From assembly GCF_032598905.1 (NCBI RefSeq), contig NZ_CP122458.1:9139001-9203000 (forward strand): a stretch of DNA of 64,000 bases, in the 5' to 3' direction. The translations under genes and the position numbers were made by a program. This document shows, in pieces, positions 16,184 to 33,526 of the stretch (the stretch's first letter is position 1; each line of letters opens with the position of its first letter). The DNA is from Streptomyces sp. 11x1 (GTDB lineage Bacteria > Actinomycetota > Actinomycetes > Streptomycetales > Streptomycetaceae). The notes beneath the pieces were generated by a model that worked only from the letters and a program-made list of their open reading frames with translations, had not been told where the DNA came from and ran no database searches.

Positions 16184-16402
16184 GTGACTGAAAGTGAACG
16201 CCCCTCAGCGACCGAGCCCAAGTTCCGTGTCCGTGCCCGCCACACCACCGACACGGTCACCGTCTACCAGGCGTACCGCCCGGAGATGGGCGGCCCGGCC
16301 GCGCGGCACGGTCGTTTCCCGGCCGCGTGGAAGCGGGACCGGATGACCTGGGTCATCAAGCCGCGTTCACAACCGGATCCGTGGCGCGTCGCCGAGCAGT
16401 AG
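16184..16402 (+). pseudogene. 5' half of a DUF4291 gene, cut by the island
   Basis: From the GTG at 16184, the frame encodes about 57 residues of a DUF4291 protein: RARHTTDTVTVYQAYRPEMG, then GRFPAAWKRDRMTW. At 16351 it passes into the island border and ends shortly after in unrelated sequence (..RSQPDPWRVAEQ). The missing remainder of a DUF4291 protein, starting at the same M-T-W-I-K-P motif, lies 17.2 kb downstream at 33539. A complete paralogue at 23474-24067 (minus strand) shows what the intact protein looks like. DUF4291 has no established function. The truncated protein is unlikely to work. Confidence 0.85.
16343..16371 (+). repeat. Island left border site (site 1)
   Basis: The host part ATGACCTGG is joined to GTCATCAAGCCGCGTTCACA. 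The core TGACCTGG..ATCAAGCCG is a direct repeat of the right border at 33527-33556, with a 3-base GTC insertion here. Only the right-hand inverted-repeat arm (TCAAGCCGCGTTCACA, 16356-16371) is present, because the left arm is replaced by DUF4291 coding sequence. Confidence 0.75.
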
Positions 16403-16564
16403 TCAGGCTGAACTCGCGGGTGCCGACCGAGCCGCACAGGGTGCAACGCCAGGCCCCGCCCTGTGCCGCGACCGGACACGGCTGAGCACCTCGGCGTTCC
16501 TGCCTGCGTGGGCCGGTCCTCCGCTCCGGGGATCGCCCCGACAAACCGTCCGATGCCGGGTCGG

Positions 16565-17575
16565 TCAGCGATCCGGCTCCGTCACTCGCAGCTGTCGCAA
16601 CAGGCCGCCGTAGTCCTCGTCGTCGTCACTGATGAAGATCGGAAAAGAGCCGGAGACCAACGCAACGCCTTCGACCTTGAGGCCCGAGCTCCGGGCGAGC
16701 ATCTGCGGCGGCTTGACGGGAGCCAGTCGCGCGCCGAGTGGCCCGCCCCGCTGAACCATGGCCGCGCGGTACACGGCGCTGTCGAAGGGCCCGAGGTCAC
16801 CGGGGTCGTACGCGGACGAGACGTAGAGACTGCCCTTCGCGTCGATGTCGAGGCCCGAGGCGGGGCGCGCACCCGGCGGCTCGGGCGCGGTGAACGAGAT
16901 CGACGTCCACTTCCTGCCGAACGTGATCGCACCGCTCCTGCCGACCGTCAGGCGCGTCATGTTGATGCGGGTGGTGTCGCTCCCCTGCGCTCGCTCGGCG
17001 TACACGAAGTAGTCCCGCCCCCCGACCGTCGCGACGGCGGTGGCCTCGACGTTGGTGAGCGGCTCGGGCGTCTTCGGCCACGGCACCGAGCCCACGATCT
17101 CGACATCGAGGTTCTTGTCCCACCGCGCGAGGTAGATGGTGGGGTCGGGGTCATCGCCGTCGGCGTTGCTCTCCACCAGCAGCGCCTTGTCTCGGCCTGG
17201 CAGCCGGGCAATGCTCTCCAGGTCGTTCGGCACGCTGGGGAAGTCCACGTGAAGCTCCTCGACGGCGATCCCGTCGGGGTCGACGGGCGTCCGCACGATC
17301 GCCAGGCGCGGCAGGTCGCGTTCGGCGTCGTTGTCCCTCGCGTCGTGGCAGACCAGGAAGACCTCTCGTGACTCCGCGTCGCGCCCCGGGGCGGTGAACC
17401 TGCGCTCGGTGGCGAGCCAGGCGATGCCGCTGAACTCACGTGGTGCCCTGACCCGGCTCCCGCCGGGGGACGAGACGCCGGTGGACCTCTCGACGCCGCA
17501 CGCGGCCAGCACGAGGAGGTTCAGTCCGACGACAGCCGACAACAGGCTACGTGTCAGAAACCGACGTCCCATCAT
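16565..17575 (-). CDS. Secreted lipoprotein, phytase-like/beta-propeller type
   Basis: This 336-residue protein starts MMGRRFLTRSLLSAVVGLN with lipobox LAAC (cysteine near residue 26), so it should be a membrane-anchored exported lipoprotein. The mature part (REFSGIAWLATERRFTA, DLESIARLPGRDKALLVESN, EATAVATVGGRDYFVYAERA, SGLDIDAKGSLYVSSAYDPG, GLKVEGVALVSGSFPIFISD) has repeated strand pairs and late acidic DDDEDY clusters like calcium-binding beta-propellers of the esterase-like/phytase-like group. Its substrate is unknown. It is the first gene of island unit A and reads toward the left border. Its base composition matches the chromosome. Confidence 0.7.
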   Translation of the reverse strand: MMGRRFLTRSLLSAVVGLNLLVLAACGVERSTGVSSPGGSRVRAPREFSGIAWLATERRFTAPGRDAESREVFLVCHDARDNDAERDLPRLAIVRTPVDPDGIAVEELHVDFPSVPNDLESIARLPGRDKALLVESNADGDDPDPTIYLARWDKNLDVEIVGSVPWPKTPEPLTNVEATAVATVGGRDYFVYAERAQGSDTTRINMTRLTVGRSGAITFGRKWTSISFTAPEPPGARPASGLDIDAKGSLYVSSAYDPGDLGPFDSAVYRAAMVQRGGPLGARLAPVKPPQMLARSSGLKVEGVALVSGSFPIFISDDDEDYGGLLRQLRVTEPDR

Positions 17576-17780
17576 GTGTCCTTCCGTTGCGCTGCGAGCA
17601 CTGCCACGGGTCCCGGCCCGCTCGGGACGCTAGGGCAGAGGCCGTTCGGTTCCCACCAGGCGCCGCCGGAATATCACCGGTCTGGCGGTGAACCTCCGTG
17701 AAGGGAGATGATCGCGTTCATGGCTTCCCGGAATTCGCGGGATTCGGGATCCTCGATCGCCGACCGCGCCAGTGTGTCCT

Positions 17781-18881
17781 GAGAGGGCGTTTGAAGTGGG
17801 CAGATTGCCGTTTACGCCCTAGTACGTTCCTCGCCAGGTGGGTGTCGTCTCGTCCGTTATGCGCCTGGCGAGGTTGTCGATCGAGGCGATGTGGATCATG
17901 GCCTCGGAGCTGGCGGTGAGGGTCTCGTAGTCGCGGGCGAGGCGGCGGTGCATCATGATCCAGCCGATACTCCGCTCCACCACCCAGCGCCGTTTCACGA
18001 CCTGAAAGCCGCGGCTCTCCGGATTCCGGTTGACGACTTCGACGTCGATTCCGAGGGTGGCGCCGTGCTCGACGACGGCATTCTTGAAGCCGGTGTCGAC
18101 CCAGCTCTTCGAGATGGTCGGGTACATCTCCTTCGCCTGGTCGAGCAGGCGGATTCCCAGGGCGTTCTCCGACAGGCCCGCGGCGGCGACGGTCACAGCG
18201 AGGATGAGTCCGATCGTGTCCGTGAGGATGCCGCGCTTCCGGCCGACAATTTTCTTCGCGGCGTCCGTTCCCTGGCTGGTCACGGGCACGTTGGTGGAAG
18301 TCTTCACGCTCTGGGTGTCGATCACGGATGCGGTCGGCTCGGGCTTGCGCCCCTCTTTTACTCGCGCCAGTCCGGTCAGGTCGTAGTTGAGCTGGGCGAA
18401 GATTCCTTCGTCGCGCCAGGCGGCGTAGTAGGCGTAAACGGTGCCGTGGTTCGGGAAGTCGTGCGGGAGATATTTCCAGGGGATTCCGGTGCGGTTCACG
18501 TAGAGGATCGCGTTGAAGACGTCCCGTAAATCGACCTTGGCCGGCTGTCCGGTTGGCCTGCGGTCGAGTCGGGCCTTTCTCCAGGCCGTCAACGTCGGCT
18601 CGATCAGGGCCCATCGGGCGTCGGACAGGTCGCTGGGGTACGGCTTGCGCTCGCTCACGGCGTAGCGTGATCACGGGCGAGGCGGAGGGCTTGGTTCCGC
18701 TGTTCATTGGGCGATTCCGCGGCAACTTCAAACCAGACGGACTTCCAGGTACAGAAGCGAACGAGATGGATGGCCGAGCATTCGACCTGGGGAGCACCAT
18801 TCGTCGCCTATGGGATGAAGACCCTCAAAGCAGGGCAGTGGCGAGAGCCGCATATAGGGCTTGACCTGCATAAACGCCCTC
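17781..18881 (-). mobile_element. IS5-family insertion sequence (island unit A)
   Basis: About 1.1 kb around an intact transposase gene. Short terminal inverted repeats are visible: GAGAGGGCGTTT at 17781-17792 and AAACGCCCTC at 18872-18881. The direct repeat CTGAGAGGGCG occurs at both ends and makes the exact boundary and target duplication ambiguous. Ends were judged by eye only. Confidence 0.45.
17819..18658 (-). CDS. IS5-family transposase (DDE)
   Basis: This 279-residue single-frame transposase begins MSERKPYPSDLSDARWALIE, with DUF4096-type N-terminal domain (LPHDFPNHGTVYAYYAAWRD). The DDE catalytic domain has the first Asp in SVIDTQSVKTS, GRKRGILTDTIGLILAV, the second Asp in KSWVDTGFKNA, and the Glu in RRWVVERSIGWIMMHRRLARDYE. 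All three acidic residues are present and the frame is unbroken, so the element may be active. It is the closest intact relative in the window of the broken transposase at 21250-22064, which lacks the KKIV-like residues before GRKRG. Confidence 0.9.
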   Translation of the reverse strand: MSERKPYPSDLSDARWALIEPTLTAWRKARLDRRPTGQPAKVDLRDVFNAILYVNRTGIPWKYLPHDFPNHGTVYAYYAAWRDEGIFAQLNYDLTGLARVKEGRKPEPTASVIDTQSVKTSTNVPVTSQGTDAAKKIVGRKRGILTDTIGLILAVTVAAAGLSENALGIRLLDQAKEMYPTISKSWVDTGFKNAVVEHGATLGIDVEVVNRNPESRGFQVVKRRWVVERSIGWIMMHRRLARDYETLTASSEAMIHIASIDNLARRITDETTPTWRGTY

Positions 18882-19033
18882 TGAGAGGGCGATATGAGAG
18901 TTGATGGCTGATTTTGCCGCTTCGTTGAGGGTGAGCGGCAGGTCGCTGCAGGATCCGCGACTTCAGTAGCGATCCCCATCGAGGGCTCTTTCGATCTTTG
19001 TTTGGCCCGCCCACTGATCCAAGACGGGACTGC
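18659..19033. other. Region between the IS5 element and the TetR gene
   Basis: About 375 bases. The first part is the untranslated end of the IS5 element up to about 18881. The rest has lower GC than its surroundings (for example near 18890-18920 and 18980-19010) and no supported gene. Short frames such as VLDQWAGQTKIERALDGDRY look like the tail of a degraded gene but match no family I recognise. Confidence 0.35.
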
Positions 19034-19660
19034 CTAGGGGTTGTGAGCCCTGTGGGGCTGCACCTTCAGCACGCGAAGCGTGGCGGTGCGAAGACAGGCC
19101 GCCGCCTCGGCCACTGTCATGCGGCCGGCCCCGACCTCGTTGCCGGCGGCGTGTCCCAGGGCGGTCACCGCCCCGACCAGCCAGGCGGCGGGCGGGTCGG
19201 GGTCGAACTCTCCTGCAGCTTGCCCCTTCTCGATCAACCGCGTCAGTCGGGCTGCGACGGGCTCGTGCCGCGCTCGGTCGGCTTCGGCATGTGCGGGGGC
19301 GGTGCCGAGCTGGAGCAGCACGGGATGCCGCTTGAACAGCAGCCACCCGATGTCCTGCAGTCGCAGGAGTGCGTCGAGGGCGGGCCCGTCCTCGACTTCC
19401 GCCGCGTCCATCACTGCCATGGCCTCTTCCGTGACGCGGTCGGCCACAGCTTCCAGCAGTGCGTCGCGGGTGCCGAAGTGGGCGTAGATGGTTTGGCGGG
19501 TGACGCCGGCTGCTGCGGCGATGGCGGCCATGCCCGCATCGGGCCGCTCGGCGAGCAGTCGGACCGCGGCGTCGAGTACGGCCTCCCTGCTCCGTTCGGC
19601 GTCGGCCCGACGGCGACGCCGAACGGCCGAGGTGTCATCGGGGACTTCTGAAGCAGACAA
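19034..19660 (-). CDS. TetR/AcrR-family transcriptional regulator
   Basis: This 208-residue repressor has an N-terminal helix-turn-helix (REAVLDAAVRLLAERPDAGM, then AAIAAAAGVTRQTIYAHFGT) at about residues 25-70 and a ligand-binding C-terminal domain. The start appears to be TTG at 19660: the frame is closed by a TAA two codons upstream and no ATG or GTG precedes the DNA-binding domain. It diverges from the SnoaL-like/DUF1772 gene pair, and the spacer holds a clear palindrome and promoter, so it most likely represses that pair and possibly itself. The inducer is unknown. Confidence 0.88.
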   Translation of the reverse strand: MSASEVPDDTSAVRRRRRADAERSREAVLDAAVRLLAERPDAGMAAIAAAAGVTRQTIYAHFGTRDALLEAVADRVTEEAMAVMDAAEVEDGPALDALLRLQDIGWLLFKRHPVLLQLGTAPAHAEADRARHEPVAARLTRLIEKGQAAGEFDPDPPAAWLVGAVTALGHAAGNEVGAGRMTVAEAAACLRTATLRVLKVQPHRAHNP

Positions 19661-19671
19661 TTCTTACAGCC

Positions 19672-19714
19672 TTGTCAAAGTTAATTGGCGGGCATATCTT
19701 ACAGAGATGTAAGA
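19672..19714 (+). promoter_or_regulatory. Promoter and TetR operator of the SnoaL-like/DUF1772 genes
   Basis: TTGTCA (19672-19677) and TATCTT (19695-19700) are 17 bases apart. TCTTACA-GAGA-TGTAAGA (19697-19714) is a perfect 7-base-arm palindrome overlapping the -10 box and start site. A half-site TTCTTACA occurs at 19661-19668, next to the TetR start codon. This arrangement fits repression by the divergent TetR protein. Confidence 0.7.
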
Positions 19715-19756
19715 GATAGTAGCGGGGTGCGACCCTGCCTGCCTGGCCGGAGCGAC

Positions 19757-20167
19757 ATGCAACCTCTGGAAACCAAGACCCCCGAGCAGTTCGTCGCCGA
19801 CTTCTTCACCTCCTTTACCGAGGCTGTCGTCCACGGCTCGGAGGACCCCGCCGACCTCATGGCGAGGTTCTACACCCGGGACGTCGTACAGATCGCCGAC
19901 GGCGTACGACTCGACTGGGACCGGCTCGCCGCCCACCTGCGCCCCGTGCGCAGGAACCTGACCGAGTTCCGGTTCGAGGTGCACGAGGCGCTGGCGGACG
20001 GTAACCGGATCGCGGCCCGGTTCACGATCCACGCCCGGATGCGTAAGACCGGGCCGGTCACCACGCAGGTGCACATGTTCGCGGATTTCACCACCGAGGG
20101 CCTGCTGCGACGGGCCGAGCAGCTCACGCGGAGCCTCGATCGAACCGAACCACAGCACGGGGGGTAG
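19757..20167 (+). CDS. SnoaL-like/NTF2-fold protein
   Basis: This 136-residue protein shows the SnoaL pattern: QFVADFFTSFTEAVVHGSED, FYTRDVVQIADGVRLDWDRL, EFRFEVHEALADGNRIAARF, then VTTQVHMFADFTTEGLLRRA. The fold forms a small cavity used for isomerase, cyclase or hydratase reactions or ligand binding. The ATG at 19757 follows CCGGAGCG; a longer in-frame start at 19685 would place the start before the operator and is unlikely. It lies 5 bases before the DUF1772 gene, so both form an operon controlled by the divergent TetR gene. Confidence 0.8.
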   Translation: MQPLETKTPEQFVADFFTSFTEAVVHGSEDPADLMARFYTRDVVQIADGVRLDWDRLAAHLRPVRRNLTEFRFEVHEALADGNRIAARFTIHARMRKTGPVTTQVHMFADFTTEGLLRRAEQLTRSLDRTEPQHGG

Positions 20168-20172
20168 CAAAG

Positions 20173-20688
20173 ATGCGTATCCGACTCGCCCAGGCAGTTG
20201 CCCTGTTGTCCACCGGCGCTCTCGCGGGCGCATTCGGCTACGGAGCGGCCAACCTGGTTCCCACGTTCAACGCCGTACCGCTCGAGATGAGGCTGTCCTT
20301 CCACACGGAGTTGATGCAGATGAACGGCATCACCATGCAGGCGGCCATGGGGATGTCGGCGCTTAGCTCCATGACGCTCGCCATCATGACCCGCGGCACC
20401 ACACGGCGGCTCGCCGGCGGAGCGGCACTCCTGGCGCTGACGTCCTTCCTGATCACCCGGCTCGGCAACGTCCCCATCAACGGTCAGATCAAGAAGTGGG
20501 CCGCCACCTCGGCTCCCCCCGACCATGCAGAGATTCTCGCTCGCTGGGAAGCCTTTAACTACGCCCGCACAGGTGCCGCGTTCGCCGCCTTCGTCCTGCT
20601 GATCCTTCTTGCCCTGCGTCAGCACCGCACGGGGCGCGATCCGAAAGACAGGCCCCAGACGAAGCCCCGGTGGCACCACGGAAAGTAA
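20173..20688 (+). CDS. DUF1772 (anthrone-oxygenase-like) membrane protein
   Basis: This 171-residue protein has four hydrophobic helices. The conserved DUF1772 signature RLGNVPINGQIKKW is followed by WEAFNYARTGAAFAAFVLLI, where R..N...N..I and W..FN..R are the family's invariant positions. The family includes fungal anthrone oxygenases, but most bacterial members are uncharacterised. It follows the SnoaL-like gene by 5 bases. The pair looks like a small oxidation/cyclisation or stress-response module induced through the TetR regulator. Confidence 0.8.
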   Translation: MRIRLAQAVALLSTGALAGAFGYGAANLVPTFNAVPLEMRLSFHTELMQMNGITMQAAMGMSALSSMTLAIMTRGTTRRLAGGAALLALTSFLITRLGNVPINGQIKKWAATSAPPDHAEILARWEAFNYARTGAAFAAFVLLILLALRQHRTGRDPKDRPQTKPRWHHGK

Positions 20689-20830
20689 TGGCCCTCGCCG
20701 ACCATCGGGGTCCAGATTGCTCACAACGAACCGACGCGGTCAGTGCTCCCGAAGCCCGGATTCCGGCGTTCCCGCAGGGACCAGTGCGCATGAAGCCGTG
20801 GACCCTACAGTCGCGGCGACGCAGGGCGGC

Positions 20831-21253
20831 TTACGGCCGCGGATGGGTGAACAAGCCCTGCTCGGTCTCGGCCAGGATCCCGCGTTCGACGAGCCGCTTG
20901 AGCTTCAAGCGGGTGTTGTTGATGGTGTTGGGCGCGATCTCCAGGTCCATCGCCTCGCACACCTGCCGCGCCCGCAGCGGGGCGTCGGCGGCAGCGAACA
21001 CCGCCATGATCTGCTGGTAGGCCGGATGGTCCGGCAGCTTCGGGGGCGGCGGCACGGGCGGGACCGGCTCGGGCAGCTCCAGCAGCGTCTTGCGAGTGAT
21101 CCGGATCTCTTCGGCAGTACGGTGAAACTCCTCCAGCTGCGCGGAAAGCTCCGCGATCCGCTCCTTGACCGCCTCGGCCTGCGCGGCGATCTCCCGCTCC
21201 CGCTCCTCCAGCCGTGCCAGCACCGCGCCGAGGGTGAGCTGATCGCCGGTCAT
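20831..21253 (-). CDS. IS companion protein: coiled coil plus winged helix
   Basis: This 140-residue protein has an N-terminal coiled coil of about 50 residues (LGAVLARLEEREREIAAQAE, then AVKERIAELSAQLEEFH), a proline-rich hinge (EPVPPVPPPPKLPD) and a C-terminal winged-helix-like domain (IMAVFAAADAPLRARQVCEA, then RLKLKRLVERGILAETEQG). Its ATG overlaps the transposase stop codon (ATGA, 21250-21253), so the two are translationally coupled and belong to the same insertion sequence. A protein of the same architecture at 45554-46015 accompanies another IS5-type transposase. It may bind DNA ends or regulate transposition. Confidence 0.7.
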   Translation of the reverse strand: MTGDQLTLGAVLARLEEREREIAAQAEAVKERIAELSAQLEEFHRTAEEIRITRKTLLELPEPVPPVPPPPKLPDHPAYQQIMAVFAAADAPLRARQVCEAMDLEIAPNTINNTRLKLKRLVERGILAETEQGLFTHPRP

Positions 21254-22064
21254 GTGGTACGCCAGGCCGCGGCGGTGGCCCCGGTCAGCCGGCGCAATAT
21301 CACCGCGGTCATTGCCCAGTACACCCGCGACTCGGAGGTGCGGGGCTGGTGCTCATAGTCGCGCACCAACCTGCGGTGCAGCATCAAGATCCCGTAGGCG
21401 CGCTCCACGATCCACCGCTTGGGGATCGGAACGAACCCGGTCTGCGCGGGGTTGCGCTCCACGACCTCCACCTCGATGCCCACCTTCTCCCCGTGCGTGA
21501 CGACGGCATTCTTGAAGCCCCGGTCGACCAGGGCCTTCTCGACGGTGTCGGCGTCGGCGGCGACCTTGTCCAGCAGAGTGATACCGACGGCGTTCTCGTG
21601 CGCCGACGCGGCCACCACGACCACCGCGATCACCAGCCCCAGGACGTCAACAGCCAGGCCGCGCTTGCGGCCGCATCACGCCCCGTCGACTGCACGGGCA
21701 CCCCGGCCGCGGCGTGCGCACTCTGGGTGTCGAGCACCACCAGGCTCGGGTCCGCCTTCCGGCCCGCCTTCTCCCGCACCTGCCAGCGCAGCAGGTCGTG
21801 GATGGTCTGGTCGGTGCCGTCGTCACGCCAGGTGTAGAAGTAGTACTTCACCGCGCCGGGCGGCGGGAAGTCGTGCGGGAGCAGCTCCCACTGGCAGCCG
21901 GTGCGGCCCTGGTAGAGCAGCGCGTTGACGATCTCCCGCATCGCGTACCGGCCCTGATGGCCGCTGACCGAGGGGTGACCGGCCTTCCACGTGGTGATCA
22001 CCGGCTCGACCAGCGACCACTGCTCGTCGGTCAGGTCGGTCCTGTAGGGCTTGCGCTCGCTCAC
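21250..22064 (-). pseudogene. IS5-family transposase, frameshifted
   Basis: The N-terminal part starts at the GTG at 22064 (SERKPYRTDLTDEQWSLVEP, LPHDFPPPGAVKYYFYTWRD, VVLDTQSAHAAAGVPVQSTG). It leaves the transposase frame near 21660-21680. The DDE domain resumes one frame back (GRKRGLAVDVLGLVIAVVVV, ALVDRGFKNAVV, KRWIVERAYGILMLHRRLV). Compared with the intact relative at 17819-18658, the residues between DAA and GRKRG are missing, which points to a small deletion. There is no A-run that would support programmed frameshifting. The terminal inverted repeats of this element were not identified. Confidence 0.8.
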
Positions 22065-22197
22065 GGCGACCAGCCCAGCACGCCCACGGCCCCCGACCGG
22101 CCGGGATACCGTCCTGCCACACATTCAAGTGACGACAAGTTACCTAAACACTCACATACCGCCCTCTGATACCGGAGTCGACGCCCTCTGAATGGTC

Positions 22198-22239
22198 TGT
22201 GAACACGGCTTGACATGGGTCATCAAGCCGTTTCGACAG
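22198..22239. repeat. Internal island site 2 (junction of units A and B)
   Basis: TGTGAACACGGCTTGA and TCAAGCCGTTTCGACA form an imperfect inverted repeat around CATGGGTCA. It matches site 3 and, half by half, the two island borders. Compared with site 3 it has changes in the outer part of each arm. Confidence 0.7.
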
Positions 22240-22458
22240 CCCCTTTCCTTGGTGAAGGCCGACAGGAAGCAGCGGGCAGCCGCCCCCCTGCGAAGGTCCT
22301 CCGGAGGGCTGATCGAGCGGCGTGGGAGATTGCCCGGGGGTGACATCTCCCGGAAGGATGGTTTCCCGACTTGCGGAAGTGATGAACCGGACGGGTCTCG
22401 CCGCTCCTCTTCGCAGGCGGTACGGCGAGGCGGTGCGGCTGCGCCGGAGGAGAACGAG

Positions 22459-23391
22459 ATGCACGACGTGCGCAGTGGCTTCGCCACGATGAACGACGGT
22501 GTACGGCTCCACTATCTGGAAGCCGGCAGTGGTCCGGACTTGCTTTTCGTTCCCGGTTGGTCGCAGACCGCCGCGCAATGGCGTCATCAGATCACCGACT
22601 TCGCCCGTACCCATCACGTGGTCGCGGTCGACCACCGCGGCCACGGTGGATCCGGCAAGCCGGATCACGGATACCGGGTCGCTCGTCTGTCGACGGATCT
22701 CCATCAGCTCATTCATCTCCTGGACCTCACCGAGGTTGTCTGGGTGGCCCACTCCATGGGCTGCGCGCTGGCGTGGTCCTACTGGGATCTGTTCGGCGGG
22801 GACCGGTTGGCGCGCCTGGTGCTGTTCGACGAACCCGCTGTTCTGGTCCGGCAGCCGTACTGGCCGGACGGTCTGGCCGAATATTTTGGTGCGTTGTACG
22901 GCCTCGGGCAGATCGCCGAGGTTGTCGCGGGACTTCGCGATCCGCGCTCGGACGCCGAGATCCTCAGCGCCGGATTCCTGGACGCCATGTGGACCCCGGC
23001 CGCCGACGAGGGGGACCGCCAGTGGGTTCTCGCCCAGAACCTTCTCCTGCCCAGGGAGTACGCGGGCAGACTACTGCTGGACAATGTCATGCAGGACTGG
23101 CGTGACGTCTTGCCCAGGATCACGGTTCCGACGTTGGTCATAGGAGGGAACGACAGCGTGATCCCCTCAGCCGCCGCGCGGTCGGTGGCCTCGGCTATTC
23201 CCGGGGCCTCGGTTCGGATTCTCGGTGAGCGCTCCAGCCACTTCGCGTTCTGGGAGAACCCCGTCGCCTTCAACCGGGAGATCCGGGCCTTCCTCGAAAC
23301 GCCGGTCGACGCCGACGGGCACCAGGCATCCGTCCGGCGGAGACACAGCGATGCGGCGGGGGCGGAGGAAAGGTCTGCGAACGAGGCTTGA
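22459..23391 (+). CDS. Alpha/beta-hydrolase
   Basis: This 310-residue alpha/beta-hydrolase has the nucleophile elbow AHSMGCALAW (serine near residue 100), the oxyanion region FVPGWSQTAAQWRHQ, the acid-containing strand TLVIGGNDSVIP and the catalytic histidine region ERSSHFAFWENP. It is likely an esterase, lipase or epoxide-hydrolase-like enzyme in the cytoplasm. The ATG at 22459 follows GGAGGAGA. It is the only gene of the 1.2 kb unit B, and its last codons and stop (TGA at 23389-23391) lie inside the left arm of site 3. That is a cassette-like arrangement in which the gene fills the unit from site to site. No promoter was obvious upstream. Confidence 0.9.
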   Translation: MHDVRSGFATMNDGVRLHYLEAGSGPDLLFVPGWSQTAAQWRHQITDFARTHHVVAVDHRGHGGSGKPDHGYRVARLSTDLHQLIHLLDLTEVVWVAHSMGCALAWSYWDLFGGDRLARLVLFDEPAVLVRQPYWPDGLAEYFGALYGLGQIAEVVAGLRDPRSDAEILSAGFLDAMWTPAADEGDRQWVLAQNLLLPREYAGRLLLDNVMQDWRDVLPRITVPTLVIGGNDSVIPSAAARSVASAIPGASVRILGERSSHFAFWENPVAFNREIRAFLETPVDADGHQASVRRRHSDAAGAEERSANEA

Positions 23392-23417
23392 CATGGGTCA
23401 TCAAGCCGCGTTCACAG
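23376..23417. repeat. Internal island site 3 (junction of units B and C)
   Basis: TGCGAACGAGGCTTGA (23376-23391) and TCAAGCCGCGTTCACA (23401-23416) form an inverted repeat with 14 of 16 positions paired, spaced by CATGGGTCA. It is the best-preserved copy of the island site. Its right arm is identical to the left border, and its left arm matches the right border except for one base. Confidence 0.75.
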
Positions 23418-23473
23418 CCCTCTGCCGCCATGTGACCCGTGGGTGATGTCGGCGGCTGTGCCCGGAGTGTCGG

Positions 23474-24067
23474 TCAGGGACACAGGTGGGCCAGGAGTTC
23501 TGCACTGGCGGGGTACTCCTGTTCCTGGGGGAGCAGTCGGGCAGCTGAGTCCAGTTCGCCGTCCCTGACGAGTGCGTGGATCTCGTGGGCGAGCGGGGTG
23601 ACGTCGCTGATGGACACGATCCACTCGTCGGCGTAACGCGACGACGCCTCACCCGAGAGCCCCAGTTGCAGCGAGCGGTACGGCAGGGGATGCAGGTGCA
23701 GATCGCGTTCGGGATCCCACTGGACACGGGCCGGTGCGCGCTTGAGGCCGCGCTGCCAGGTGTCGCGATCGGGATGCAGGCCGCGGACGTAATGCGACAG
23801 GCAGGCATGGCGCAGCGCCCAGTCGAAGCCGTCACGTGTGATCTCGACGGCGAGAACGGTCTCCTGACCGTCCTTCATGCCCCAGCAGGAGCGGTACATC
23901 ATCCACATGAAACTGGGCTTGATCCACGTCATACGATCAGGCTTCCACGCGACCGGAAAGCGGCCGTCTCGGACGGCAGGCAGTCCGATCTCAGGGGAGT
24001 ACGCCTGGTAGACGGTGATCGTGGAGGCCGTGTGGAGCGCGCGGATTCTGCGGAGCGGTTCTTCCAT
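23474..24067 (-). CDS. DUF4291 protein (intact paralogue carried by the island)
   Basis: This 197-residue full-length DUF4291 protein contains IRALHTASTITVYQAYSPEI, GRFPVAWKPDRMTWIKPSFM, WMMYRSCWGMKDGQETVLAV, ARVQWDPERDLHLHPLPYRS and LQLGLSGEASSRYADEWIVS. The family is widespread and of unknown function; the conserved aromatic and charged patches suggest an enzyme or nucleotide-binding fold, but this is inference. The gene is inside the island that disrupts another DUF4291 gene. It carries the equivalent of the insertion target (ATGACGTGGATCAAGCCC, near 23926-23943), unoccupied. It reads toward site 3, 57 bases away. Confidence 0.88.
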   Translation of the reverse strand: MEEPLRRIRALHTASTITVYQAYSPEIGLPAVRDGRFPVAWKPDRMTWIKPSFMWMMYRSCWGMKDGQETVLAVEITRDGFDWALRHACLSHYVRGLHPDRDTWQRGLKRAPARVQWDPERDLHLHPLPYRSLQLGLSGEASSRYADEWIVSISDVTPLAHEIHALVRDGELDSAARLLPQEQEYPASAELLAHLCP

Positions 24068-24134
24068 GGCGCACAGCGTGGACTCGGTCAGTTCATGTGA
24101 CTACCGATTTTTTCGTCTGGGTGGCAGCGCCTAG

Positions 24135-25576
24135 TAGTGCTTGGTCAGGTCGGTATCGGTTCTGGCATGTTGCGGTGACAGGTGGGGCAGGCGCCGGTCC
24201 AGACCGCGAGGAGTAGCTGCAGTTCGCGGGCGACCTGGTAGAGGCTCAGGCCGGCGCCGTCTCTTTTGGGGACCGGGTGATGCGCTGAAGGGTGCAAAAG
24301 GCGTGTGCGACGGAGACGAGGGTGACGTGGTGGTGCCAGCCTCGCCAGGTGCGGCCTTCGAAGTGGGCCAGGCCCAGGGTCTGCTTCATCTCGCGGTAGT
24401 CGTGCTCGATGCGCCAGCGTAGTTTCGCGGTGCGCACGAGGGTGGCCAGCGCCGTGTCGGCGGGAAGGTTGGACAGCCAGAACTGGACGGGTTCGGGCTG
24501 GTCGGCGGGCCATTCGGCCAGCAGCCAGCAGACGGGCAGTTCCGGGCCGTCGCAGGCTTTGCGGATCTCGCGTCCGGCGGGCCGCACGCGCAGGGCCACG
24601 AAGCGGGAGTACATGCGCTTGACGCCGCTGCGGCCGCTGCCCGGGCGGGAGCCTTCCCGCCACTGCACCGGCCGGGCTGTCTGCTTGCCGGCCTCGATGA
24701 CCAGCTTCTTCACCGTCCTGGCCGCCTCGGGATAAACCGGCTGGGGCCGAGGGCCGCGACCGCCGTAGGGCGGGGTATGCGGCCGTGCCGTTTCCGGGTG
24801 GGCGGTGGTCGTGGTGGAGATGCCGACCGCGTAGCCGAGCCCGCGTTCTTCCAGGCCCAGCCGGAAGGCTGCGGTATCGCCGTAACCGCCGTCGGCGACG
24901 ACGATCGGGACGTCGATGCCCCACGACCTGGTCTCGTCGATCATGTCCAGGGCCAGCTGCCACTTCTCGACGTGTCCGACGTCGGTGGGGATGCCGCACG
25001 TGGTGCGGCGGGCCACCTTGCCCGGATCGGCCTTGGACGAGGCGGGATCCCAGCTCTCGGGCAGGAACAGACGCCAGTCGACAGCAGCCGACGCGTCGTC
25101 GGAGGCCAGGTGCAGGGACACCCCGGCCTGACAGTTGGTGACCTTGCCCGCGGTGCCGGTGTACTGCCGGGCCACACACGCCGAGGCGTCCCCGTCCTTG
25201 AGGAAGCCTGTGTCATCCACGATCAGCGCGGTCGGCTTGACCACCTGCTGCATCCGCCAGGCCAGGCGGGCGCGGACATGCGCCGCGTCCCACGGGCTGG
25301 TGGTGATGAAGTTCGCCAGGGCCTGCCGGTTGCCGTCCTCGCCCAGGCGGGCGGCCATCGGTTCCACCGACTTGCGCCGCCCGTCCAGCAGCAGGCCCCG
25401 CAGATAGACCGTTCCCCACCGGCGTTGATCCGCCCGCGCGAACGGCTCGAACATCTCTGCCGCGAAGTCCTCCAGATCACACCGGACCGCGGCAAGCTCC
25501 CCACCCATCACAACAGGTCAACGGAACAAGCGATCAAACGGACACGCCACCGGCGAGTGAACCTGACCAAGCACTA
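24135..25576 (-). mobile_element. IS701-family insertion sequence
   Basis: This complete 1442-base element has perfect 16-base terminal inverted repeats (TAGTGCTTGGTCAGGT at 24135-24150 and its complement at 25561-25576). It is flanked by the 4-base direct repeat CTAG (24131-24134 and 25577-25580), as expected for this family. It is joined through that CTAG to the IS5 element on its right. Confidence 0.88.
24246..25511 (-). CDS. IS701-family transposase
   Basis: This 421-residue DDE transposase of the IS701/IS4 superfamily begins with [20 protein letters not shown], then [20 protein letters not shown] and [20 protein letters not shown], typical of the family's N terminus. The catalytic residues are the Asp in [12 protein letters not shown], the Asp in [14 protein letters not shown] and the Glu in [23 protein letters not shown]. 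The frame is intact and the element has perfect ends, so it could be mobile. The ATG at 25511 or the following codon is the start. Confidence 0.93.
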
Positions 25577-25580
25577 CTAG

Positions 25581-26521
25581 GGCGTGTGTCGAAAGTGGAT
25601 CTTGAGCATGAGATGATCTTGATTCGTGGCACGTGGAGATCTGACGGACGCGCAATGGGCGGTGCTGGAACCGCTGTTGCCGAAGGGCGTGAAGCCCGGA
25701 CGGCCGCCGACGTGGGCCAGGCGGCAGCTGATCGACGGCATACGGTTCCGGGTCCGCACCGGCATCCCTTGGCGGGACCTGCCCGCCGAGTACGGGCCGT
25801 GGGGCCGGGCGTACGACCTGTTCCGCCGGTGGCAGAGGGACGGTACCTGGCATCGGATCTTCACCGCGCTGCAGGCCCGGGCCGACGCGAAAGAGCTGAT
25901 CACCTGGGACATCAACGTCGACTCCACGGTGTGCCGGGCCCACCAGCACGCCGCCGGGGCGAGGAAAAAGGGGAGCTGCAGAAGGAGCCGCCCGGCGGCG
26001 TCAGCGTCGAGCCGGACGACCACGGGCTCGGGCGCTCGCGCGGCGGTCTGACCACCAAGCTGCACCTGGCCGTCGAACAGGGCCAGAAGCCCTTGTCGAT
26101 CGTGATCACGGCCGGCCAGCGGGGCGACTCCCCGCAGTTCGAGCCTGTCCTGAACAAGGTCCGCGTCCCGCGTCCTGGGCCGGGCAGGCCGCGCACCCGA
26201 CCCAATCGCGTGCGCGCCGACAAGGCGTACGCCTCCCGGAAGAACCGCGCTTACCTGCGGCGGCGCGGGATCCGCTGCACCATCCCGGACAAGGCCGACC
26301 AGGCCCGGAACCGCAAGAAACGAGGGTCGCGCGGCGGCCGTCCGCCGAAGTTCGACCCGCAGGACTACAAGGCTCGGCACGCGGTCGAGTGCGGCATCAA
26401 CCGCCTCAAAAGACACCGGGCCGTGGCCACGAGATACGACAAACTCGCGGTCCGCTACGAGGCGACCGTCCTCGTAGCGGCTATCAACGAGTGGCTGTGA
26501 CCAGCACTTTCGATACACGCC
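25581..26521 (+). mobile_element. IS5-family (IS427-type) insertion sequence
   Basis: Element of 941 bases with inverted repeats GGCGTGTGTCGAAAGTG at 25581-25597 and CACTTTCGATACACGCC at 26505-26521 (one mismatch). It is flanked by CTAG on both sides (25577-25580 and 26522-26525), matching the 4-base YTAR target of this family. It shares its left CTAG with the IS701 element and its right CTAG with the IS630 remnant. Confidence 0.85.
25626..26500 (+). CDS. IS5-family transposase, two frames (probable -1 frameshift)
   Basis: Frame A starts at 25626 ([60 protein letters not shown]) and stops at 26051. Frame B continues the protein one base back from about 25965 ([60 protein letters not shown]) to 26500. 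The switch falls on the A-run GAGGAAAAAGGGGAG, and the -1 direction is the one used for programmed frameshifting in the IS427 group. The fusion would carry the whole DDE set: D in NVDSTV, D in RADKAY, E in AVECGIN. A true mutation is the alternative. Confidence 0.8.
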
Positions 26522-26525
26522 CTAG

Positions 26526-27345
26526 TAGACTGTCGCAGCTAATTTCCGGGATAGAGGTGGCGCAGTTTGATGCGTGCGTCGTGGGTGGTGAACTGCCAGT
26601 TGACCTGACGCTGGCCGGTGTTGGTGGCGCTCTGCCAGGCGGAGAGTTCGGTATTGAGGGTGTCGAGGTCGCTGATCCTGCGGTCGAGGCATTGCCGGGT
26701 CAGCGCGGAGAGTTCGATCTCGGCGATGTTGAGCCATGACCCGTGTCTGGGCGTGTGGTGGATCTCGAGGCGCTGGGCCAGGGCGAAGGCCTCTTGCGGT
26801 TCGAATGCCTCGTACAGTGAGGTGATGTTGTGGGTGTTGAGGTTGTCCATCACCAGCACCACGGTGTCGGCGTCGGGGTAGTCCACGCTCAGCAGCTGCC
26901 TCACCTGGCCGGCCCAGTCGGTCCGGGTCCGCCGGGGCAGTGCCTGGATCCGACGCCACCCGCGCACGGGTTCGACCCATACGAAGACGGAGCACGTGCC
27001 GCAGCGGATGTACTCGTTGCCCTCGCGGGCGTCCCGGCCGGGGCGGGCCGGGAGCGGGGCGCGGGCATGGTCGAGGAGCTGGTAGGGCTTCTCGTCCATG
27101 CACACCACGGGACGTGCCGGGTCGAAGGGCCGGGCGTAGACGGCCAGTACGTCTTCCATCCGGGCCGCGAACTCCGCGTTCGCCCGTGGCGGGATGGTCC
27201 AGCACTTCTTCAGGTGAGGACGCAGTTCCGTTTTTTCGGATCCGCCCGATGGTGGAGTGGTCCAGGTCGGGGATGTCCTCGACCAGTGCGACGTGCTTCT
27301 CCAGCAGCCGCAGCGACCACCGGGCGTGGCTGTGAGCATGGAAGC
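26526..27345 (-). pseudogene. IS630-family transposase remnant
   Basis: One IS630 end (starting TAGACTGTCGCAGC near 26526) and most of the transposase are present: [40 protein letters not shown], then [20 protein letters not shown], which carries the final Asp/Glu region. The N-terminal piece ([20 protein letters not shown]) is in another frame, with the shift at the A-run near 27230-27236. The first part of the protein and the other end of the element are missing, cut at about 27345 where it joins the OLD nuclease remnant. The shift is in the +1 direction, which argues for an indel and against programmed frameshifting. Confidence 0.8.
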
Positions 27346-27964
27346 ACGCCCACAGGGCGATGCCGGCCGACTGCAGGGACTGCCGCTCGGACAACCGGAA
27401 CAGCGTGGGAATCACCCGCTGTTCGGTGTCACCCTCGACGGCCAGGAAAGAACGCTCGTGCAGGAGCACAGAGTTACGCAGGCCCACCGCCGCGGCGATC
27501 CGTCCCAGGTGACCGTCGATCTCGTCGTGCGTGTCGACCCCCAACCGCTCGACCGGCGTCCGGCCGTCCTCCAACCGCAGGTGTACGACATCGGCGATGT
27601 CTACACCATCGATCGGGTTCATGGAGTGGGTGGTGACGATGACGTTCACGTGGGGCAGCGCGCTCCGGTCACGGATGAGCTGCATGGTCTTGTGCTGGTG
27701 ACCGTAGTCGAGATGCGTGTCCGGCTCGTCGTAGATCACGATCGTCTGCACCGGCGGCGGGGCATCCGCGACAGCCTCGGGCTCGGCGGAGGGATCGACG
27801 TCGCCGAACTCCTCGCGCGTGAGCAGCCAGCTGTTCCACTCCCAGATCGCAAGGGAGATACGGCGCGCGCTTCCCAGCCCGGAACGTGCCAGGCCGACGG
27901 CTTCGCCCTTCGTACGGGCGATCCGCAGCGGTGCGCCCTCACGCTGGGTCAGATGCCGGTTCAA
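27346..27964 (-). pseudogene. OLD-family ATP-dependent nuclease, internal fragment
   Basis: About 200 codons of an ABC-type ATPase with a Toprim domain remain. They include a signature-like SGLGSARRISLAIWEWNSWL, the Walker B strand IVIYDEPDTHLDYGHQHKTM, the H-loop VNVIVTTHSMNPID and a Toprim start [20 protein letters not shown] with its conserved glutamate. The Walker A region is missing and the C-terminal Toprim part is replaced by the IS630 remnant at about 27345. OLD proteins often act in phage defence (for example with GajB in Gabija, or alone in retron-linked systems), so this may be a dead defence gene. Its other end abuts the MarR gene. Confidence 0.65.
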
Positions 27965-28370
27965 GGGCCTTCCCCAAAAGACTCACCAGGTGAAGCAGGT
28001 CGTCCGCGTCCAGTCGGGCCAAGGGGCTCAGGGGCAGGGTCGCCTCGATCACCACAGACCGCACTCGTCGGCCGTCGTCCGTAAGCGTCACGACGCGGGA
28101 ACGACGGTCGGCGGGGTCGGTGGAGCGTTCAACGAGACCGCGGCTGGTGAGCTGGTTCATGACGAAACTGAGGTTGGGCGCGTTGCAGTGCAGTCGGTCG
28201 GCCAGGTCCTTCATCGAGGGCGGCGCCTCGGCCGGATCGATCGACCAGAGTGCCTGAGCGGTGGCGTGCGTCAGACCGTGTTCGGCCAGGATGCTTGTGA
28301 TCCGGTCGCTCGTCCGCAGGAAGATCTCCTGGTTCGCCGCCACTGCCGCCTCAAGGATGCTCCGTGTCAT
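27939..28370 (-). CDS. MarR-family transcriptional regulator
   Basis: This 143-residue winged-helix regulator contains HGLTHATAQALWSIDPAEAP, the recognition region MKDLADRLHCNAPNLSFVMN, QLTSRGLVERSTDPADRRSR and the wing VVTLTDDGRRV, all typical MarR features. The ATG at 28370 follows AGGATGAAG. It is divergent from the old-yellow-enzyme gene, and the spacer holds two near-identical palindromes, so it most likely represses both genes and responds to an electrophile or aromatic ligand. The last residues overlap the start of the OLD remnant frame, marking the break point of an old rearrangement. Confidence 0.88.
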   Translation of the reverse strand: MTRSILEAAVAANQEIFLRTSDRITSILAEHGLTHATAQALWSIDPAEAPPSMKDLADRLHCNAPNLSFVMNQLTSRGLVERSTDPADRRSRVVTLTDDGRRVRSVVIEATLPLSPLARLDADDLLHLVSLLGKALEPASDPA

Positions 28371-28389
28371 GACTTCATCCTACCGTTTT

Positions 28390-28430
28390 ACTTCGAGACT
28401 CGAAGTGCTAACTTATTCGAGACTCGAAGT
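28390..28430. promoter_or_regulatory. Twin MarR operators between the divergent genes
   Basis: ACTTCGAGACTCGAAGT (28390-28406) is a perfect palindrome with a central A, and ATTCGAGACTCGAAGT (28415-28430) repeats it 24-25 bases further on. The spacing places both on about the same DNA face. They lie where promoters for the two divergent genes are expected. This is an obvious binding array for the adjacent MarR protein. Confidence 0.75.
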
Positions 28431-28510
28431 ATCGACTCGCTGCGCTCGGTATCCAAGAGCGCCGAGTCGAGGTGCCTGCATCTGTCAAGGCCGACGACAA
28501 GAGAGAAGAA

Positions 28511-29746
28511 ATGACCGCGCTGAATGAGCCGCTGCACCTGAGCCATGGCGCTCCACTGCTCAACAGGATCGCGAAGGCCGCAATGGAAGAGTTGCTCGCC
28601 GCGCCGGGGCAGTTGCCCGGTGACAAACTCTTCACACTCTATCGGCGTTGGGCCGCCGGAGGAGCGGGACTCCTGATCACCGGGCATGTGATGATCGACG
28701 GCAGAGCGGTCGCCCAGCCTGCTGATGTAGTCCTGGAACAGGACACTCCGCTGGAGCCGTTCCAGCGCTGGGCGGCGGCCGGCAAGTCGGCGGGTGGACG
28801 AATGTGGATGCAGATCAACCATCCCGGGCGCGTCGTCCCCAAGGACTTAGCCGACACCACCTGGGCCCCGTCCGCGGTGTCCATCGGCGCCGGTCGCTTC
28901 TCCAGCATGTACCCGACGCCCCAGCCGATGAGCGCCCAGGAGATCGCCGAGACGGTGGAACGCTTCGCCGTGACCGCGCGGCGAGCCCAGCAAGCCGGCT
29001 TCGACGGAGTCGAGATCCACGCCGCCCACGGCTACCTTCTCTCCCAGTTCCTCTCCCCTCTCGTGAACCGGCGCGATGACCGCTGGGGCGGCAATCTGCG
29101 CAACCGTGCCCGCCTGCTGCTCGACGTCGTGAGCGCAGTACGGGAACGGGTCGGCACGGACTTCGCCGTGGGAGTGAAACTGAACTCGGCAGACTTTCAG
29201 CGCGGTGGATTCGACACTGGTGACGCGCGAGATGTGATCAAGATGCTCGCCGACGAGGGAGCTGACCTGGTAGAGCTGTCCGGTGGCAGTATCGAAAGCC
29301 TGGCCACCGCGGGCCCAGGCTTCGCGGCGGACGGTCGTACCCTTGCCCGCGAGGCCTACTTCCTCGAACTCGCCAAGGAGCTTGTCGCCACCTCGCCGCT
29401 ACCACTGCTGCTGACCGGAGGAATCCGCCGACGCGCCGTCGCCCAACATGTGATCGACTCCGGGTTCGCCATGGCCGGTGTAGCCACTGCGCTGGCCATC
29501 AATCCCACACTGCCCGAGCAGTGGCTCGCCGGGAGTGATGCACAGACCCACCCGGCCCGCAGCCGTCTGCGCAACAAGATGCTGGCAGCCGCAGCTGTCC
29601 AAGCCGTCACATCGCGGCGACTTGCCCGCCTCGCCGCGGGCAAGTCGTCGGAGACCCCCTACTCTCCGGCCGCCGCCCTGCTCCATGAAACGCTCGTCCG
29701 TGCCCGGCGCCGACGCGGCTATCGGAAATGGCGTACGGCCGCCTGA
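28511..29746 (+). CDS. NADH:flavin oxidoreductase, old yellow enzyme family
   Basis: This 411-residue FMN-dependent reductase of the OYE family shows the substrate-binding HAAHGYLLSQFLSPLVNRRD, followed by DRWGG, and also WMQINHPGRVVPKDL, GADLVELSGG and a C-terminal FMN-phosphate region LLTGGIRRRAVAQHVIDSGF. Members reduce activated alkenes and other electrophiles with NAD(P)H. The ATG at 28511 follows GAGAGAAGA and gives a normal length. It is controlled, by position, by the divergent MarR gene. Together they look like an electrophile-sensing detoxification module carried by the island. Confidence 0.9.
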   Translation: MTALNEPLHLSHGAPLLNRIAKAAMEELLAAPGQLPGDKLFTLYRRWAAGGAGLLITGHVMIDGRAVAQPADVVLEQDTPLEPFQRWAAAGKSAGGRMWMQINHPGRVVPKDLADTTWAPSAVSIGAGRFSSMYPTPQPMSAQEIAETVERFAVTARRAQQAGFDGVEIHAAHGYLLSQFLSPLVNRRDDRWGGNLRNRARLLLDVVSAVRERVGTDFAVGVKLNSADFQRGGFDTGDARDVIKMLADEGADLVELSGGSIESLATAGPGFAADGRTLAREAYFLELAKELVATSPLPLLLTGGIRRRAVAQHVIDSGFAMAGVATALAINPTLPEQWLAGSDAQTHPARSRLRNKMLAAAAVQAVTSRRLARLAAGKSSETPYSPAAALLHETLVRARRRRGYRKWRTAA

Positions 29747-29966
29747 AGCCGGACCGGTTCGTACCGGCCCCTCGGGCACATGCCGTCCTATGAATGGCGT
29801 GCATCCTGAAGTTGCTGGTCACGGGTCTGGCGTGAGGGTCGGGAGAACTACTCGCGCAGAGATCTGCTGCCAGTGCGGGCGTCAGGAGCCTGCGGCCTTC
29901 CGGGACGAGCAAGGGCCCTGATGCCGGCTCTGCCGGTCGAAGAACCGGGCCGAGCGCTGCGTCTGT

Positions 29967-31964: not shown

Positions 31965-31969
31965 TCTGT

Positions 31970-33234
31970 GGGCGGTGCGGAAGAGCCGCAGCCCGTCGGG
32001 ACGGCAAGAGGTCTGGCATCTCTGCTGACAGCGCGAACACCGCGTCCCGCAGCCGTGTCACAGCGGCGGCCGCACCAAGGAGCCCCACCGTCGACCGCCG
32101 CTGGACGCCGTACTGCGCGAGTTGCCCACCCTACGTCCGGTCGCCCACGGTTGGCTTCCCGCCTGTCCTCGCCGACATCGCCGCCGAGCGTCTGCTGCAG
32201 ATGCGGGTGCCGCGGCGCCGCACTCCCAACCACCTCACGAGCGTGACCCAGGGCCTGGCCGAGGCGAGCCCTACGGTTGCGTACGCCCAAGTGGTACTAA
32301 CACCGTAACTCTCCTCTCTCGCGGCGGATGAGGGCCGGGCTCAATAGCGTGCAACTCGATGACGAGTTGCATGCCTTGTTGAAACTGCACTCGGACAGGG
32401 GCATAGCTGCCCGGGCGGCGTCGTGCGCATTGTCGTCCGTGCTCCGCCTGTGCTGGAGACGGGTCTGTCGGGGATCGAAAATGTAGGTCATGCTACGGAC
32501 AAGGAACCCGTGGCCGCTGCCAGGCACACGTGACGGTGCACGTGCCACCTGGTGTCCTGTCCGACTCGTACCTGAGGCTGCTCAGCATGGGGCATGCAGG
32601 ATCTGGCAGGCGGCGTGGAGGTCTCCATCTGCGGGTCCAGTTAGTGTCCTGAGCTCGGGTCGGTTCGTGAGATTGACCAGACAGTCAGGACTCCTGCGCT
32701 CAGAACGGTCGGGTGGGCGCCGCTGCCTCAACAGGCCGCTGTCCCGGCATCGGACTTGGATCCAGCCATATCGTTTGATCGTTTGATCGCCTGAACCGGT
32801 GACCGTGGCGGTCCGCGACGAGGGCAAGAGGGCCGGTAGCAGGGCCGGCGGCGTACCGGCAAGTGGTTGCTGCGACCGGCGCGCCACCCCCGCGGGGTTG
32901 TTATCGGGACATCAACTCCCTTGCCATCAACAGTCGTTGTGTGCTGGGACGGTAAAATCTTCTGACCGATCGGCGACTGCTGACGATTGAGGACAAGACC
33001 AGGGGGATGCACATGCAGTGCTTAGGCCACGCGGGCTCGTCCCCGTGGTTGCCAGACGCTCGCTACACGGGCGATGCGTACTGGCTACGACCTCAGCACG
33101 TAGGCATTGGTCGTCCGGCCGGCATGTGTGTTGAACCCTGCAAGATCCGGACGCCGATGTTCTGACAGAACTCGGAAGGGTCGTCGTTGTCCACTCAGGT
33201 GCCGGTGTCTAATCGCCGGGTCTAGGAAGTCGTC
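31970..33234. other. Region after IS1634 with gene scraps, no intact gene seen
   Basis: About 1.26 kb of the island with weaker coding bias. Around 32090-32309 two plus-strand frames read as one broken protein: LDAVLRELPTLRPVAHGWLP, then VLADIAAERLLQMRVPRRRT, then PNHLTSVTQGLAEASPTVAY, ending in a TAA. This looks like the end of a frameshifted gene of unknown family. Between 32310 and 33234 several short frames exist on both strands, but none has a ribosome binding site, domain or consistent codon use. The IS1634 element sits in the left part of this decayed area. Confidence 0.35.
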
Positions 33235-33402: not shown

Positions 33403-33526
33403 CGCAACGTGGGGGCGGATCCGAACAAATCGCCCCCACGCGCTTGCACGTCATCATCACCCGCTCCCCGCATGTGTTCATCGTGGTCGGGATTCACTCG
33501 TCGACCGTAGCCGCGCGGGAAAGGAT

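Follow-up and report, generated by a model that had tools for sequence, protein, structure and literature searches.

Probable integron-like arrays of small gene cassettes at one point of the DUF4291 gene in Streptomyces

A split DUF4291 gene and the units between its halves

The window, by which we mean the whole 64,000-nucleotide stretch of Streptomyces sp. 11x1 DNA that was analysed, holds a DUF4291 gene in two pieces. The N-terminal part (16184..16350, forward strand) ends in ...DRMTW and matches PF14124 positions 2-46 of 180 (E 3.3e-13), and the C-terminal part (33545..33997, forward) begins with WIKPSF... and matches positions 43-180 of 180 (E 4.2e-56); the cut falls at the MTW|IKP codons (Met-Thr-Trp|Ile-Lys-Pro). 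At the left border (16344..16372, forward), a TGAC-CTGG core is followed by a cassette left-end arm, GTCATCAAGCCGCGTTCACAA. At the right border (about 33516..33560, forward), a right-end arm, TTGTGAACGAGGCTTGAC (to about 33544), is followed by the core CCTGG and then by DUF4291 sequence, ATCAAGCCGTCC. The original prediction had recognized two border half-sites (left, 16344-16372; right, about 33516-33544), which are indeed the ends of a 17-kb island; what it overlooked is that both of them cut one DUF4291 gene in two. Because the border half-sites cut that gene, we read the three units of the island (A, B, and C) as a cassette array inserted in DUF4291. Joining the border flanks by eye gives GGATGACCTGGATCAAGCC, whose core is as in intact genes of other genomes, among the matches listed. 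When an empty orthologous locus was sought, the window's DUF4291 part and its downstream part matched different places in the listed genomes.

Two internal sites divide the island. Site 2 (22187..22242, forward) joins the right-end arm of unit A to the left-end arm of unit B through the core CATGG, and site 3 (23365..23425, forward) joins units B and C in the same way; both are near-perfect dyads of ~55 bp, with core position N at 22215 and 23393, a spacing of 1178 bp. N is C at both borders and A at both internal sites. With up to three mismatches, GGCTTGANNTGGGTCATCAAGCC matched the window at 16340, 22207, and 23385 (n = 3) against a mean of 0.00 in 100 shuffles, confirming that sites 2 and 3 are full inverted-repeat sites where they had been predicted. 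Genome-wide, GGCTTGACNTGGRTCA gave three matches in 10.7 Mb (G000), each within the window, with the left border not matched by this pattern. REP/BIME elements occur as many dispersed intergenic copies; here the core pattern was found three times in the genome, all in the window array. An Rfam search returned no match.

Unit A (16352..22214, forward), between the left border and site 2, carries a gene without known function (16565-17575, reverse), a TetR gene (19034-19660, reverse), a SnoaL-like gene (19685-20167, forward), an anthrone-oxygenase-like gene (20173-20688, forward), and two IS4/5-type transposase genes (17819-18658 and 21630-22124, both reverse). Unit B (22216..23392, forward) is a 1178-bp single-gene cassette. 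As predicted, exactly one gene lies between sites 2 and 3, an alpha/beta hydrolase (22459..23391, forward, likely ATG at 22459; PF00561, E 1.4e-21), and its stop codon (TGA, 23389-23391) falls inside the left arm of site 3. Unit C (23394..33543, forward) is a DUF4291 cassette: it contains a full-length DUF4291 cargo gene (23474-24067; PF14124, E 2.2e-73) on the reverse strand, opposite to the target, and an FMN oxidoreductase gene (28472-29746, forward), and it is enlarged by DDE-type IS genes (24246-25511, reverse; 25586-26500, forward; 26539-27339, reverse; 30124-31851, forward). IS insertions have further enlarged both A and C, and because several DDE-type IS genes of different families lie in unit C (24145-31851), we take the window array to be partly decayed.

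DNA relatives of the unit B gene (E <= 1e-20) were detected in seven other genomes of 392, one of them over only 218 bp at 71%, and no site was found at any of the seven fetched loci. In one relative (L249) the similarity also covers ~160 bp 5' of the start codon, and in another (L251) an identical 20-bp stretch lies 5' of the gene; these comparisons suggest that the unit B cassette may have captured a gene together with its own promoter. At L251 (700-2421, genome G025) the relative lies downstream of an intact DUF4291 gene, at a distance of ~210 bp, and no site could be detected there, an arrangement that is either chance or a trace of cassette formation.

Distribution, borders, and shuffling of the cassettes

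The left-end pattern was found in 34 of 392 Streptomyces genomes (reversed control, 0), with arms seen in 31 of the 34 (the exceptions being G365, G109, and G012). A pattern matching the intact core or a right border was present in 287 of the 392 (reversed control, one match), and DUF4291 is widespread also in genomes where the array pattern was not found. The wider search for the site that had been proposed was run on an 84,980-species collection, which may leave out close kin of the window, and returned 37 stretches with the full internal site. Of these, 33 belong to 27 Streptomyces genomes; the other four, from unrelated phyla, have no arms and were dropped as chance matches. A search of plasmids gave one site, a single internal-type copy between genes for hypothetical proteins on the 970-kb S. 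cadmiisoli megaplasmid (L077, 10001-10046).

Sites in 72 fetched loci, some from one genome, were scored with a matrix built from 81 seed sites, using a cut-off of 18 for the final counts (13 in an earlier reading) and leaving out duplicate sites and loci fetched for other reasons. Once repeats had been removed, the internal sites numbered 81, the left borders 28, and the right borders 30. The left borders all follow DUF4291 codons and the right borders all run into DUF4291 (unique sites), DUF4291 flanks being what defined a border; ends whose partner was degenerate or foreign (13 right, 11 left) were counted separately. The rarity of the left-end pattern and the position of these left and right borders at one DUF4291 point set the site apart from a REP/MITE palindrome. 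Site direction is uniform within arrays, with the exception of one weak site each in L086 and L094.

Some ends depart from this arrangement. Right ends are joined to non-DUF4291 DNA at L022 (15851, an IS5-type gene), L019 (5649), and L081 (10464), as a result of either secondary targets or rearrangements at the core. At two loci (L045, 4968; L095, 9283) a right end is fused to DUF4291 at the GQETVLA codons, away from the usual core. At L069 (7570) and L081 (11966), a cassette of family F12 has, in place of the usual arm, a left end similar to the DUF4291 target in its right half (ccgtcgttcc).

The units are small (n = 91; median 1323 bp, quartiles 1003 and 1948) and can be numerous, with eight sites in a row after the left border in L022. 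Among 59 complete units shorter than 3 kb, 40 have one predicted gene, eight have two, one has three, and 10 have none; of the 59 genes that they contain, 23 are forward and 36 reverse, and for 32 the stop codon falls no more than 100 bp from a site core. Among the cargo are arginase, APH phosphotransferases, M48 peptidase, Mrr-TerD, DUF3885, glyoxalase, RibD_C, and HAD proteins, and 13 of 30 cassette proteins had no Pfam match at E <= 0.01. Besides the Mrr-TerD cassette, some array proteins match defence-type models (PADLOC: type IV restriction, PD-T4-6, SAVED). Tandem, mostly single-gene cassettes with stops often near the site, a fixed insertion point, and diverse cargo often without known function would also be expected of a remote integron branch, that is, attC arrays lacking an integrase (CALIN) on which IntI acts in trans through folded single strands. 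The presence of genes in both directions speaks against this origin, as do the properties of the sites described below, and we give it hardly any credence.

Nearly half of the units (44/91) fall into 15 families common to different arrays; the remaining 47 are singletons. Family F5 occurs by itself in L020, follows F11 in L047, and follows F14 in L080. F3 opens the array in L023 and L027, takes second place in L078, and immediately precedes F8 and F9 in L022; F8 and F9 themselves are ordered F9|F8 in L083 and F8|F9 in L022, and F14 and F15 have opposite orders in two genomes. F6 is exactly 1222 bp in three loci, and similarity ends at the core in all six families displayed. Since the same families recur between arrays in different orders, cassettes have been shuffled between genomes. 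Variation in unit order and content, as the original prediction envisaged, is borne out by these other arrays, units A and B of the window having no family.

The DUF4291 cassette of unit C is a recurrent one. A full-length DUF4291 gene lies between two ends in 12 arrays and is reversed relative to the target in 12/12; four further full-length copies not enclosed by two ends are reversed in L071 and L081 and forward in L046 and L087. In a tree of 43 rows, 12 copies labelled as cassettes, including that of unit C, form one clade with the G142 copy (support 100/98), which a script had labelled 'other' yet lies inside a one-cassette array (L024), and 14 interrupted targets are scattered. Among 28 array-bearing genomes, full-length DUF4291 is present in 15 (mostly at the array), only fragments in 11, and none in two. 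The 13/28 without a full-length gene include the single-contig assemblies G118, G268, and G279; loss of the gene is thus possible, and an array can persist without its protein. The cassette may have a role in repair of function: the reversed copy can replace the gene broken by the array, and its recurrence may reflect selection for this.

The same observations bear on the idea that the DUF4291 protein is itself the enzyme and its cassette the autonomous element by which the others are moved. The target belongs to one family with the recurrent cargo, the cassette copies form one mobile clade, and the enclosed copies are consistently reversed, as intI is in integrons. However, nearly half of the array-bearing genomes lack a full-length gene, the gene is widespread where the array pattern was not found, and no relative of solved structure was found by sequence. 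We consider this reading very improbable. A search of open-access literature returned no paper naming DUF4291.

The exchange point and the search for a recombinase

Diagnostic bases of the core (TGAC-N-T-G-G/A-R-TCA) show which partner gave which part of a site; sites were counted as independent though arrays and species are related, and the p values are rough. R, the base after TGG, is A in 29/30 right borders, as in DUF4291, compared with 35/81 internal sites (p 6.6e-8), and at left borders it resembles the internal sites (p 0.12). Base 4 reads A in 12/81 internal sites and 4/28 left borders and in 0/30 right borders (right versus internal, p 0.034). This make-up of the borders places the exchange left of base 4. 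N is mostly A at internal sites (46/81) and mostly G at left borders (22/28), where it differs from internal sites (p 4e-4) and fits intact DUF4291 (p 0.78), which would put the exchange right of N. Nevertheless, N = C is rarer at left borders (1/28) than in intact DUF4291 (40/135; p 0.003), the comparison set being 135 intact genes among the matches listed, counted by hand, and N at right borders (A in 10/30) differs from both internal sites (p 0.034) and intact genes (p 0.037). TGAC is identical in both partners, so the left limit is not fixed. From these bases, we place the exchange within TGACNTG, probably at or just left of the dyad centre. With exchange in this middle region, each site is half of one cassette and half of the next, and split sites argue against attC sites and against target duplications.

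One junction with foreign DNA offers a separate view of the core. At L022 a right end is joined to an IS5-type gene, and four IS relatives (83-84%) have TTCGGCTGG there, so the junction bases left of TGG came from the cassette. After TGG the junction has A and the IS relatives have C. We rejected this junction as a means of fixing the exchange at TG, given the difference at this base in the closest IS copies found (83-84%); had the lost partner also carried C, that exchange could have lain right of base 5, contrary to the borders.

Duplications at the target are central to another explanation, under which the units are non-autonomous MITE-like transposons whose terminal inverted repeats measure ~23 bp and which a DDE transposase acting in trans inserts side by side with a 4-8 bp duplication (NTGG or TGACNTGG). 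The units do end in inverted repeats, carry diverse cargo, and lack a transposase of their own kind, and N is the same at both borders in 10/14 arrays with both borders in one stretch, including the window. In the other four, N differs between borders (L067 G/A, L068 A/G, L070 G/T, L092 G/A), against the identical duplication that a DDE transposon or MITE leaves on both sides. Repeated duplication also predicts one N per array, at odds with the different preferences of internal sites and left borders. Moreover, left and right borders are unlike at base 4 and R, and three extra bases are present at the left end, so that the two ends do not mirror each other at a cut; all borders read lie in one gene, and the right-end core pattern occurs nowhere else in the window genome. 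Transposons of this kind are therefore an improbable source of the arrays.

The arms, whose consensus is AAAGGTCTGTGAACGCGGCTTGA, are conserved as sequence. Across 80 internal sites, the two arms of a site showed no covariation (16.86/23 matches versus 16.71 for random pairs; 11.6% of shuffles were as high), and no covariation of arms was found within cassettes either. Sequence conservation without covariation sets these sites apart from folded attC sites and agrees with the earlier view that they are not typical attC. Along with exchange in the middle of a site whose two arms belong to different cassettes, and with a tyrosine-recombinase profile that found nothing inside arrays, it further weakens the case for a CALIN served by IntI.

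A recombinase was sought in the cassettes and around them. Pfam searches revealed none in 30 cassette proteins and, among the matches listed (25 of 144 families), none in 96 of 123 representatives of 197 further proteins, which came from arrays and unclosed array ends and in part represent chromosomal flank. Local profiles built from 30 serine and 30 tyrosine recombinases, run in six frames over 70 and 19 fetched stretches, located no recombinase inside a cassette. With these profiles, there is likewise none near the sites of the window, as had been noted from its letters, nor inside the cassettes of the other arrays read. Several profile matches were set aside: an integrase fragment 3.5 kb away from an array (L025 and L060, one place), an integrase 5 kb outside an array (L230), a match with no Pfam counterpart that overlaps a NicO gene (L080), a resolvase at a locus with no array (L089), and a weak tyrosine-profile match in the window itself (4718-5272) with no Pfam match. 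At L235, a match lies under a longer opposite open reading frame, 6 kb from a left border whose right border was not found, so that it may lie inside or outside the array.

An intact large serine recombinase is encoded in S. cadmiisoli (L078, 4114-5584, reverse) 0.18 kb downstream of the interrupted DUF4291 gene, outside the array. It was rejected as the enzyme: a close relative (79%, partial) occurs in only one other of 40 genomes. Some distant match to it was present in 30/40. When the serine recombinases of ten array-bearing genomes were compared by length, G268 and G238 had only two each, of different lengths. In array-bearing genomes there are sets of two tyrosine recombinases plus a small gene (L195, 6060-10325; L201, 7541-11723; L200, 7017-11370; L199, 6813-10497), which we take to be Tn554-like from their gene sizes; the stretches fetched around them show no cassette arms. 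A phage or plasmid founder was discarded, two viral matches having no arms and 47% G+C and being taken as chance; three further viral patterns gave 0 matches, phages gave none, and plasmids gave the single S. cadmiisoli megaplasmid site. The searches made of phages and plasmids found no recombinase there.

Members of the tyrosine-recombinase family gave 14 to 24 matches in each of eight array-bearing genomes tested, which leaves room for a resident Xer-like enzyme acting in trans on dyad sites, as a Streptomyces counterpart of dif/pdif modules. Such modules also have dyad sites around them in islands and an enzyme that they do not encode, and an overlap spanning N, with exchange up to the length of TGACNTG, would agree with the mixed N of right borders. 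However, core bases 4 and 5 lie outside the exchange region, and the sites nearly all point one way, compared with the alternating C/D and D/C directions described in PMC12907356. By eye, the arms are also unlike the dif motifs printed there. We judge this alternative rather unlikely.

Taken together, these data make it probable that the window contains one of a series of integron-like arrays of small gene cassettes that are inserted in Streptomyces at one attB-like point of DUF4291 and are served by a recombinase in trans. The proposal of an undescribed cassette system is thereby supported: neither a common palindrome at random intergenic positions nor a constant pairing of units B and C at fixed positions turned up. 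On this reading, a cassette is bounded by the left end RTCATCAAGCCGCGTTCACAG... and the right end ...CTGTGAACGCGGCTTGAC, and a junction of right end, core, and left end constitutes the dyad. Strand exchange would occur within TGACNTG of the core TGACNTGGRTCA, catalysed by a site-specific recombinase supplied in trans, which is the best explanation of the sites as we read them. A cassette, presumably circular, could then insert into DUF4291 or into any existing junction and be removed by the same route. Two enzyme classes are possible, a serine type, crossing over at 2 bp in the dyad centre, and a tyrosine type, for which the overlap would be 6-7 bp. Against this model stand the failure of the searches described to find a recombinase in any cassette or on phages or plasmids, the presence of only two serine recombinases, unlike in length, in each of G268 and G238, the rarity of N = C at left borders, and the N of right borders, which fits neither partner cleanly. 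In a more specific form that we advance tentatively, the system would be Streptomyces' own and not descended from integrons: one genus-wide trans recombinase, of serine type or a new class and in either case of a kind not known to build cassette arrays, would act on a dyad site and a conserved landing gene, with a mobile reversed spare copy making the landing harmless.

Comparison with known systems

Integrons are the textbook route by which bacteria collect single genes, and to our knowledge few are known from actinobacteria. If true, a Streptomyces cassette system separate from them would mean that cassette collecting arose more than once. Streptomyces is a main source of antibiotics, and the system would explain mobile accessory genes in the genus (phosphotransferases, hydrolases, restriction- and TerD-type genes, and many without known function). 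The defined dyad and target provide a means to find the enzyme; if that enzyme were Xer-like, the system would instead belong to the dif-module kind. In addition, what reads as broken DUF4291 genes in a Streptomyces genome can mark the left and right ends of a single array.

Integrons and CALINs (IntI, attI, attC) have arrays of variable order, a single insertion point, and cargo often without known function. The arrays described here resemble them in being mostly single-gene, in their variable order and content, in their one insertion point, and in many cargo genes without known function. They differ in having conserved dyads exchanged in mid-site instead of folded attC sites, an insertion point inside a conserved protein gene, and genes in both directions. 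In integrons, strands are exchanged at the R' box on the attC edge, and the whole attC travels with its cassette; here it falls in the middle region, and the arms are split between neighbours. The tyrosine profile found no IntI beside an array in the 70 and 19 stretches, and because a CALIN lacks IntI by definition, this absence speaks only against a complete integron.

Tandem SCC elements of staphylococci, moved by Ccr serine recombinases, are stacked at one attB inside a protein gene, rlmH; some lack a recombinase of their own, they measure tens of kilobases, and the target gene is kept working. Stacking at one attB in a protein gene and elements without their own recombinase are common to both systems, whereas the units here have a median of 1.3 kb and the gene is cut in two. 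A 2-bp central crossover of serine type fits the right limit left of base 4, with the right-border N mixed and the left limit not fixed; serine elements carry the recombinase gene within the element, and none was found in the cassettes. PAISt, an island of Streptomyces turgidiscabies, likewise leaves the chromosome in modules through site-specific recombination, but it uses the 8-bp sequence TTCATGAA, located at the 3' end of bacA, a different site and target.

The dif/pdif modules of Acinetobacter, on which XerCD acts, share with the arrays the placement of modules in islands, flanking sites, and a recombinase supplied by the host, as described in PMC12907356. Their dif sites consist of two 11-bp motifs around a 6-bp centre, in alternating direction (PMC12907356), in contrast to the arms of about 23 bp of other sequence and the nearly uniform direction seen here; a comparison by eye with the motifs given there found no 11-bp Xer motif of the dif consensus in AAAGGTCTGTGAACGCGGCTTGA. 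Set beside the 6-bp exchange region of dif, the exchange here lies within TGACNTG, with only its right limit fixed. Among the matches listed from the open-access literature, none presents such a cassette system. The system follows a known logic, with sites and a target unrelated to those of known systems.
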